From: a virus
Length of the DNA stretch: 23,377 nucleotides
Reading direction: 5' to 3' (one strand)
Virus record (IMG/VR): IMGVR_UViG_3300049846_000918
Coordinates: 1-23,377 of that record
Position numbers and translations under genes: made by a program. Positions within the stretch are counted from its first letter, which is position 1. Each line of letters starts with the position of its first letter. Below, in pieces: positions 11,020-17,485 of the stretch. A model generated the notes under the pieces. The model worked only from the letters and a program-made list of their open reading frames with translations. It had not been told where the DNA came from and ran no database searches.

Positions 11020-11523
11020 TCAGACCGAAGCCAGCTGCTCGCGAATCCGGCCCATCACCTTGGCCGATCGGCGTGCGCGCGGCGCTGCGGCCGGCTGCAG
11101 TCGCTCGGCGATCGCTGCCAGCTGCTCAAGGGCATGTTGCGCCTGGCCCAGGCGGTCACAGGCGTCGCGGTATGCCTGCTCATAGAGGTCGACGCGCTGC
11201 ACCACCTCCTCGGCCGGCAGGTAGGAGCCGGCAGAACTGATGTGGACGTAGACCGGTTCCGGCTGAGGTTCACCCTCGCGCACGATCTGCACGGAGCGGA
11301 TCAGGTTGCGGGCCTGGTGCTCGCGATGAAGCTCGGCCGCCACCTCGTCGTTCCACTCAAAGACAGGGTGGAGGGGCGCGTCATCGGGGCGAGCATCTTG
11401 GACGACGAGCGGAGCGGTGAGCTCACCGTTCTCGCGGGAAATGCGCGCCAGCTCTTGGCCGGCGACCTGAGCATCGACACCGCTGACGCGGGTGCCGGTG
11501 CGGAAGCTGTAGGTGATGGTCAT
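11020..11523 (-). CDS. Conserved phage protein of unknown function
   Basis: 167 aa. The N-terminal half has segments VVQDARPDDAPLHPVFEWND and AELHREHQARNLIRSV, which I recall as a recurrent pattern in early-region phage proteins ('ARPEDAPLHPAFEWDD...AARLYREHQARNLI'). The middle has VYVHISSAGSYLP. The C-terminal half is helical with a long Gln/Leu/Ala coiled-coil stretch (YEQAYRDACDRLGQAQHALE), ending in a basic, Arg-rich tail. No catalytic motif is seen. It lies immediately downstream of the pentamer array in the same transcription unit. The family is likely real; its function is unknown. Confidence 0.75.
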   Translation of the reverse strand: MTITYSFRTGTRVSGVDAQVAGQELARISRENGELTAPLVVQDARPDDAPLHPVFEWNDEVAAELHREHQARNLIRSVQIVREGEPQPEPVYVHISSAGSYLPAEEVVQRVDLYEQAYRDACDRLGQAQHALEQLAAIAERLQPAAAPRARRSAKVMGRIREQLASV

Positions 11524-11570
11524 CTGAGTTGAGAGTGAAGGTGAAGGGGCGGAGAGACCGCCCCGATGGT

Positions 11571-11987
11571 GCCAAACCGGCGGTGCCGGTGCGTGCGATA
11601 GCGAGCCGAGGCCCGCCTAGCCAAGCCAGACCGGGGCGTGCCCGATCAAGCCATGGCTCGCCTTGCCTGCGGTGCCGCACCGCGCCCCGCCGGGCCATGC
11701 CTGGCCAAGCCTGCCGAACCACGCCTGGCCCGGCCTTGCCAGGCCGCGCCTCGCCGCGCTCAGCCCCGCCTCGCCTTGCCTGCGATGGGATGCCAAGCCT
11801 CGGCTGGCCTTGCCCCGCCTTGCCGGCGATGCCTGACCCGGCCGGGCCTTGCCTGGCCACACCATGCCGCGCCACGCCTGCCGCGTCGGGCCGTGCCATG
11901 CCGGGCCATGCCGGGCCATGCCATGCCTGCGGTGCCGAGCCCCGCCAAGCCGGGCCATGCCCGGCCTTGCCATTCCAGCCATGCCTG
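11571..11987. repeat. Pentanucleotide GCCNN array with 4-nt interruptions
   Basis: No ordinary gene is seen here. From 11650 to 11987 the plus strand reads as 62 consecutive 5-base units plus seven 4-base units. By hand count 53 of the 62 pentamers start with GCC, while the last two bases vary (AT, TG, TT, GG, AA, CC, CG and others). The 4-base units (CGGT, CCAC, CGAT, CGAT, TCGG, CGGT, TCCA) start at 11670, 11719, 11783, 11827, 11886, 11930 and 11974, i.e. 44-64 bp apart. A more degenerate version extends left to about 11571. On the transcribed minus strand the unit is NNGGC. The array lies between the genes at 11020-11523 and 11998-12627, inside one transcription unit. It is open in all six frames, which follows from the unit composition. 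Confidence 0.9.
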
Positions 11988-11997
11988 ATTCTCTCCA

Positions 11998-12627
11998 TCA
12001 CACGATCTCGAACAGGCCGAAGCCCAGGCCGGCGCTCATCTTCGAGTCCGGCCGTCCCTCACCGATGCCCACCTGCAGGCCCACACGGGCGATCAGGTTC
12101 ACCACGTCATCGGATGTGAGCATCCCGGCGTCGTACCGGATCCGCAGCGTGGCGCTCCACTCGCGGTAGAGCGGCCGGCAGCGCAGGTCGACCACACCAG
12201 TGGCGTTCCGCGTCGGGGCCACCCACGGCTCAGCTTCACCGCTGGTCAGCCGCACCAGTGGCGCGCCGTCCACGCGATCGAAGCCGTCCTGCAGCACCAT
12301 GAACGCCAGCTTGGCGTGCGTCATCTTGAAGCCGCACGCCCGGCAGGCGCTGATCGCAGCATTGCGGAAGGCCGCGGCATGGATGCCTTCCCAGCCTTCG
12401 TCGGCGATGTGCTTGGCACCTTCATAGAGGGACTCGAAGTCCTTGGCCTCACGCTGCTTCCGGCTTTTGGCGGTGCTGCCAGCCTCCTGGGTCTGGCGCA
12501 TCATCTCCATTGCCTTGGCGCTGAAGCGGTTGATCACCAGCGGAGCAGTGCCTTGGATGTTGATCTCAAGCCGGCGAAAGTCCGGCGGGGTGATGGTCGC
12601 GATTGCGGCCGCTTTCGTGGTTGCCAT
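11998..12627 (-). CDS. Conserved phage protein with RAMP-like glycine-rich C-terminus
   Basis: 209 aa from the ATG at 12627 (MATTKAAAIATITPPDFRRL); a start at 12669 would add 14 residues. Seen in sequence: an N-terminal strand LEINIQGTAPLVINRFS, a Lys-rich middle (STAKSRKQREAKDFESLY), a helical FRNAAISACRACGFK, a beta segment EWSATLRIRYDA, and a C-terminal glycine-rich stretch VGIGEGRPDSKMSAGLGFG (186-204). I recall the family ('APLVINRF...GxGEGRP') as unnamed early phage proteins. The G-rich end resembles the G-loop of RAMP/Cas7-type RNA-binding proteins; this is only a visual similarity. It is the first gene of its unit; the pentamer array follows directly. Function unknown. Confidence 0.75.
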   Translation of the reverse strand: MATTKAAAIATITPPDFRRLEINIQGTAPLVINRFSAKAMEMMRQTQEAGSTAKSRKQREAKDFESLYEGAKHIADEGWEGIHAAAFRNAAISACRACGFKMTHAKLAFMVLQDGFDRVDGAPLVRLTSGEAEPWVAPTRNATGVVDLRCRPLYREWSATLRIRYDAGMLTSDDVVNLIARVGLQVGIGEGRPDSKMSAGLGFGLFEIV

Positions 12628-17165: not shown

Positions 17166-17485
17166 GCGCGGGCCTTCCTGCTGCCCTTGCGGCTGCGGCG
17201 AGCGGGGACCGGGGCCGGGGCCGGGGCCGGGGCCGGAGCGATGGCCAGCACCGGCACGACGACCGGCTCAGGCGTCATGCCTACCAGCAGGGTGCTCCAG
17301 GCGGTGGCCAGCTCGTCGTTGCGGGCCTCCAGCGCCTGACGCAGCAGACGGCCCAGGTCGTAAGCCAGCTCGGCGGCGAGCACCAGCAGTGTGGCGGCGA
17401 AGGCCAGCACCGCAGCGGTTACCCGAGCGGCGCGTTCAATGTGCGGGCCCCAGTTGGACAGGGCGATGGACTTGATCGTGTTCAT
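17162..17485 (-). CDS. Membrane protein with PA-repeat and basic tail
   Basis: 107 aa from the ATG at 17485. One hydrophobic helix (residues ~22-41: VTAAVLAFAATLLVLAAELA) is followed by AYDLGRLLRQALEARNDELA, an amphipathic region, a Pro-Ala repeat (APAPAPAPAP, encoded by four tandem GGGGCC units at 17211-17234 on the plus strand), and a very basic end (RRSRKGSRKARA). I recall membrane proteins with 'ELxYDLGR' in cyanobacterial prophages. The basic tail might bind DNA or phospholipid. Its stop overlaps the RlpA-like start (ATGA), so the two may act together at the envelope. Function unknown. Confidence 0.65.
   Translation of the reverse strand: MNTIKSIALSNWGPHIERAARVTAAVLAFAATLLVLAAELAYDLGRLLRQALEARNDELATAWSTLLVGMTPEPVVVPVLAIAPAPAPAPAPVPARRSRKGSRKARA
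17211..17234 (+). repeat. (GGGGCC)4 hexanucleotide repeat in coding sequence
   Basis: Four perfect tandem GGGGCC units on the plus strand, preceded by a partial unit. They encode the Pro-Ala repeat of the minus-strand membrane protein. Length change in steps of six would alter the linker without a frameshift. Confidence 0.85.

Follow-up and report, generated by a model that had tools for sequence, protein, structure and literature searches.

The window analyzed here, a virus contig of 23.4 kb (23,377 nucleotides; IMG/VR record IMGVR_UViG_3300049846_000918) with a G+C content of 64%, carries tail genes on the plus strand and includes genes for tail-tube and tape-measure proteins, an exonuclease, RecT, and SSB. 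A tandem array of pentamers lies in a block of minus-strand genes that also includes those for a RecE-like exonuclease, RecT, SSB, and dCTP deaminase; given this location, the array RNA is expected to read (NNGGC)n. Ten bases separate the 5' end of the array (position 11987) from the vipr stop codon, and the array is followed on the same strand by the gene at 11020-11523 (Table 1). The right end of the contig (20617-23261, plus strand) encodes a DEAD/ResIII-type helicase and then an N4/N6 DNA methylase. Another tandem repeat, 5.5 copies of the hexamer CGGGGC at 17203-17236, corresponds to Ala-Pro repeats within a minus-strand open reading frame (ORF).

The window appears to come from a tailed phage that probably infects a freshwater picocyanobacterium. 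Among cellular sequences, the one closest to its Vipr protein (81% identity) is found in a metagenome-assembled genome of Synechococcaceae, and the same system is carried by a Cylindrospermopsis cyanophage, with a Vipr that is 55% identical. Four other IMG/VR contigs of the same phage carry an identical Vipr and an identical array.

Table 1. Features of the array locus, in positions of the window
Feature	Positions	Strand	Description
vipr	11998-12627	-	RAMP-type protein, 209 aa, phrog_4652 (function previously unknown)
Putative vrRNA array	11605-11987	-	(NNGGC)n on the transcribed strand with 4-nt breaks; from parse and statistics
Module 1 (RNA 5'-most)	11929-11977	-	NN = AT AA CG AT CC TT GG TC AC
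Module 2	11880-11928	-	AGGC + 9 pentamers, NN = AT AT CC AT CC AT AC CC GC
Module 3	11826-11879	-	AGGC + 10 pentamers, NN = GT GC AT GT CA AA CC CG CA AT
Module 4	11782-11825	-	CGGC + 8 pentamers, NN = AA GG AA CA GA TT AT AT
Module 5	11713-11781	-	AGGC + 13 pentamers, NN = AA GA GG TG GC GA GC CT AA CG CA GT TC
Module 6	11669-11712	-	AGGC + 8 pentamers, NN = TT CA AT CC GG GC GC AC
Module 7 (RNA 3'-most, partly degenerate)	11605-11668	-	AGGC + 12 pentamers
Structured 3' flank, two hairpins	11524-11604	-	Candidate vrRNA tail or transcript end
Candidate vap (VIPR accessory protein), phrog_15946	11020-11523	-	167 aa; co-orientation with vipr

An independent dynamic-programming parse divides positions 11650-11987 without remainder into 62 pentamers and 7 tetramers, exactly as stated in the initial annotation. 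The strong bias toward pentamers that begin with GCC is also evident, at 49 of 62 instead of the 53 of 62 counted originally, and the tetramers obey the 5n+4 spacing rule proposed for them, at intervals of 44, 69, 44, 54, 49, and 49 that differ from the original list, the exact values being parse-dependent. The array had been drawn from 11571 to 11987; a weaker stretch of repeats does prolong it below 11650, down to 11605, but positions 11571-11604 lie outside it and are part of a hairpin-rich flank. The autocorrelation check suggested at that stage came out strongly positive: identity at a lag of 5 is 0.592 in the array (z = 10.7), whereas 2,000 shuffles that preserve dinucleotides average 0.330 ± 0.024 and never exceed 0.408; the remainder of the window gives 0.265 ± 0.027. 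The pattern (GCCNN)x5-GCC has nine exact matches in the window versus none for the reversed control. The array RNA is no more stable than its shuffles (z = -1.74), which speaks against the extensive folding that had been envisaged for it, so a stable fold does not seem to be the point of the array. The Rfam scan gave no match at the array, nor was a hammerhead ribozyme detected around it even at E values up to 1, and no CRISPR-like spaced direct repeats were found there. Nothing points to a methylation target or a recombination element, two other options raised originally.

The gene next to the array encodes a distant homolog of a phage protein of known structure: a profile built from 67 homologs matches chain D of PDB entry 36pp, "SUSP1 Vipr protein," with an E value of 2.5e-39, and the window protein alone matches SUSP1 Vipr with an E value of 0.0044. 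The gene is intact, and all invariant residues are present. The best Foldseek and VIA matches of its AlphaFold model (pLDDT, 94.7) are the Cas7/Csm3-type subunits of type III and type VII CRISPR systems (Foldseek E value of 6e-5 against Csm3-type chains; VIA Z score of up to 11.7), and the Cas7/Csm3 RAMP fold is thus predicted with high confidence. Entry 36pp was absent among the Foldseek matches listed, which came from a structure library that extends to 8 April 2026 and so may lack this entry. PADLOC and Pfam did not recognize Vipr and returned weak Csm3 scores only. In one related locus (L111, 6768-7691), two adjacent same-strand ORFs, one full-length and one a C-terminal fragment, match the Vipr profile.

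The database search for the unit pattern that had been recommended in the initial annotation, performed on viral contigs with a pattern of seven consecutive GCCNN units, yielded 120 loci; the protein played no part in their selection. Of the 106 loci in which the parse recognized an array, 80 encode Vipr within the stretch of DNA retrieved, and the retrieved stretches of the other 26 contain none. In these 80 loci, the nearest array always lies within 1,500 bases of vipr, and in 78 it is transcribed in the same sense. Conversely, loci retrieved with the protein alone contain an array in 77 of 103 cases, and its sense agrees with that of vipr in all 77. This common sense bears out the earlier suggestion that the GGC-bearing strand is the probable RNA. 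Loci L047 and L110 are apparent exceptions, with the nearest array opposite in sense to the Vipr homolog. The relatives of the array are found on phage contigs or in prophages, and the same architecture is seen in cultured phages of Mycobacterium, Gordonia, and cyanobacteria. In the cluster K Mycobacterium phages (L328-L342, L129, and L131), vipr and its partner gene are located between the genes for a Rha-like antirepressor and an excisionase, that is, in the lysogeny control region.

The partner gene, a member of phrog_15946, has homologs in 98 loci (sets of 27, 15, and 56) that also contain vipr and an array, and it shares the strand of vipr in every one of them; on account of this co-orientation, it is tentatively regarded as the accessory gene of the system and is a candidate counterpart of the VIPR genes vap1-6. 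The model of its product (pLDDT, 96.3) ends in a C-terminal helical hairpin; the resemblance to MarR-like regulators is too weak to prove anything. The 81-nt flank that separates this gene from the array is unusually stable (z = -4.66; none of 200 shuffles was equally stable), its second hairpin being GGGGCGG-TCTCT-CCGCCCC at 11546-11564, and it may represent either the tail of the guide RNA or the end of the transcript; a consensus scan for a terminator found none. Many relatives have a G/C hairpin between the array and the partner gene, although this recurrence is only suggestive because their sequences were picked by eye. A single structured flank follows the whole array, with none after each module.

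Taken together, the protein, the repeat, its position, and the kind of genome fit the Viral Interference Programmable Repeat (VIPR) system, for which the only description found is a 2026 bioRxiv preprint (PMC13142463). According to the preprint, Vipr is a RAMP protein of phages that binds vrRNAs, each made up of 9 to 16 GGY/NN repeats; the NN pairs recognize double-stranded DNA, skipping one base, and competing phages are thereby repressed (PMC13142463). VIPR occurs chiefly in the genomes of phages and prophages. The array of this tailed phage is therefore very likely to be a guide RNA (vrRNA) array of a VIPR system. It is an example of a system already described and known for a few months, not of a new kind. 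Similarly to the type II VIPR systems of Escherichia phage SUSP1 and a Pseudomonas fulva prophage, the window combines a phage-encoded RAMP homolog of SUSP1 Vipr with GGY/NN pentamer RNA flanking vipr and modules of about 8 to 13 repeats (versus 9 to 16 per vrRNA in the preprint); it also has a small candidate accessory gene beside vipr and, downstream, a structured flank that may correspond to a vrRNA tail; in the relatives of the window, too, GGY is conserved and NN is hypervariable. However, the guides of SUSP1 and P. fulva each have a long tail, whereas the putative guides of the window are arranged head-to-tail with only the 4-nt AGGC between them. The preprint also refers to types that have "staggered arrays with overlapping vrRNAs" (PMC13142463), and the head-to-tail AGGC format may be the same as this staggered array (its fig. 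S18). Unlike the VIPR subtype with interspersed hammerheads, the window array has no hammerhead ribozymes around it.

The predicted fold of Vipr is shared with Cas7/Csm3 of class 1 CRISPR-Cas systems (types III-A and VII), whose subunits align along a guide RNA. Nevertheless, Vipr is only about 10 to 15% identical to these proteins, the repeat unit is 5 nt rather than 6 nt long, and there is one RAMP only. A CRISPR-Cas array was considered for the window and rejected, as it has a 5-nt unit with a 4-nt delimiter and neither palindromic repeats nor direct repeats of about 25 to 40 nt that separate unique spacers. The trp RNA-binding attenuation protein (TRAP), a ring that binds triplets spaced by 2 to 3 nt, also imposes an RNA periodicity of about 5 nt but differs from Vipr in having another fold, a GAG/UAG motif, and no guide function.

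The tetramers, originally described as phase breaks, behave as delimiters of modules and not as random slips. Among 355 breaks in 63 arrays, the consensus in RNA is GGC-A-GGC, with A in 88% of the cases, and the 4-nt word is AGGC at 301. Modules of the related arrays contain mostly 7 to 12 pentamers, with a mode of 9 that falls inside the range given for a vrRNA in the preprint, and their 5,428 pentamers carry GGC in 85% and GGT in 4.4% of the cases (90% for both), with all 16 dinucleotides occurring at NN. Among the window's close relatives, the pentamer just before a break is frequently ACCGC or ATCGC. Other breaks were seen beside Vipr homologs: in locus L018 (1995-2351), all of them are GTTC in the RNA instead of AGGC, and loci L124 (4937-5824), L110, L030, and L092 have 7-nt or 6-nt breaks and could possibly represent other VIPR types. 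No Rfam match was obtained for these loci with longer breaks; an Rfam scan of twelve loci beyond the window, whose arrays were unbroken or had breaks of 6 or 7 nt, likewise identified no family.

Comparison of the arrays of close relatives, another check proposed originally, revealed gains and losses of whole modules between fixed ends. Arrays of this type occur in cluster K Mycobacterium phages such as Quico, DRBy19, and Philus. Among the cluster K phages, ByChance lacks one module that is present in Philus, and Donkeykong has extra modules, while the last module, AGGA ATGGC GGGGC TTGGC TGGGC, is invariant in all those compared; gains of single units, such as runs of GAGGC, also occur. In the cyanophage relatives, whose Vipr proteins are 83 to 90% identical, the array ends are kept, most interior modules are replaced, and a few guides are shared. 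Since related phages gain and lose whole modules, each AGGC-delimited module is probably one guide.

By analogy with the relatives studied in the preprint, which provide the model for how the RNA is made and bound by Vipr, for the 1-nt skip, and for DNA silencing, the locus could work as follows. A single minus-strand transcript would comprise vipr, then the array, and then the candidate accessory gene. One Vipr (RAMP) subunit would hold each NNGGC pentamer through its GGC so that NN stays free for pairing with DNA, and the target would be read as NN with one base skipped, according to the published rule. A 4-nt AGGC break would begin a new module, so that the array would provide about seven guides, of 8 to 13 NN pairs each, directed at competing phages. 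It is conceivable, at somewhat less than even chances, that each GGC-A-GGC break itself defines where a guide begins, whether because the RNA is processed there or because the shift in register makes the Vipr filament stop and start anew; the result would be a compact multiguide transcript without individual tails, in a VIPR type that matures its guides in its own way and has an uncharacterized accessory protein (phrog_15946).

Natural targets were sought by decoding the guides as strings of NN. When 588 guides were compared, all against all, with 3.3 Mb of related phage DNA, the guides that matched with at most one mismatch numbered 3, 8, 3, and 4 at skips of 0, 1, 2, and 4, respectively. The excess at skip 1 is discounted because it includes matches that had been fetched with the skip-1 pattern and because the codon period favors this skip; in this low-power comparison, there was no clear enrichment of skip 1 over skips 0, 2, and 4. 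The scans of the IMG/VR collection had low power as well, since they took exact matches only. They returned one match each for modules 3 and 5 (9 NN), neither of which extends to the full guide, and a few unrelated matches, at about the chance level, for module 1 and for a guide that relatives have in common (8 NN). The guide core common to the cluster K phages had seven matches in low-G+C contigs, at the chance level, and none in 21 array-bearing phage genomes; as a peptide it gave none in tblastn, which has little power at 14 residues. The guide of a Bradyrhizobium prophage matched one site in three of 266 genomes with 3 mismatches, again at the chance level. Thus, no convincing natural target was found in the related phage DNA, the exact IMG/VR scans, or the 266 Bradyrhizobium genomes, and the assignment of a guide function rests on homology. 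A guide common to loci L043, L165, and L167 has a full 8-NN match in L345 (at about 11032), L346, and L348, contigs of about 61% G+C, where it lies in frame in a small phage gene with the skips at wobble positions; taken alone, this match is at the chance level.

The array could have been inherited as a VIPR array and then have decayed, partly or wholly, so that it guides nothing in this phage. The 13 of 62 pentamers that deviate from GCC and the degenerate 3'-most module indicate that part of it may indeed be decayed, and the unsuccessful target search agrees with such a loss. Nevertheless, loss of function is unlikely overall, as vipr has retained all its invariant residues, the array is the same in the four other contigs of this phage, and its module layout recurs in close relatives whose arrays are clean. 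The initial annotation had listed a multivalent protein-binding site among its options, and an RNA with many such sites could apply here. The array might be no more than a binding site for Vipr, serving in regulation of vipr or in packaging of an RNA-protein particle, with NN unselected and no guiding. Its place within the vipr transcript, adjoining the gene, and the fixed GGC next to a nearly free NN would suit this role, which is nonetheless very improbable: NN pairs guide DNA recognition in the VIPR systems of SUSP1 and P. fulva (PMC13142463), some guides are kept among phages that otherwise differ in their modules, and a guide core is common to the cluster K phages.

Two further explanations have a negligible likelihood. 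Slippage can enlarge tandem repeats, and the single-unit gains in GAGGC runs show as much, but a functionless, microsatellite-like expansion is hard to reconcile with the presence of all 16 pairs at NN, with breaks that are a fixed word, and with the link of the array to a single gene family and a single strand across very distant phages. The last two positions of the pentamer had already been judged too diverse for a simple microsatellite, and in VIPR they constitute the guide information. Translation into a repetitive protein, as annotated in some phages, is suggested by the long open frames on both strands, each of the six frames across the array having 0 or 1 stop. However, GGCNN can yield only TAG as a stop, which by itself keeps the frames open; the ORFs overlapping the array have no Pfam match, and the 4-nt breaks shift the frame. 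The array was therefore correctly described as noncoding. Gp48 of Mycobacterium phage Donkeykong (L129, 3472-3858), annotated as a hypothetical protein, overlies a vrRNA array and is probably no protein; the same is probably true of L330 463-651 and similar ORFs annotated as hypothetical proteins over the arrays of other cluster K phages.

VIPR has been proposed as a viral ancestor of CRISPR, and two such systems have been studied in depth so far. As far as can be told from comparison with the main text of the preprint, the new elements here are the AGGC-delimited modular format, the module turnover between close relatives, the presence of the system in cultured Mycobacterium, Gordonia, and cyanobacterial phages, and its link to phrog_4652 and phrog_15946. 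The identification of the window array as a very likely vrRNA array gives a function to phrog_4652 and, tentatively, to phrog_15946, and it explains the repetitive "hypothetical proteins" annotated over such arrays. The phages of cultured hosts, Mycobacterium smegmatis and Gordonia terrae, make guide maturation, turnover, and natural targets testable in standard laboratory strains.
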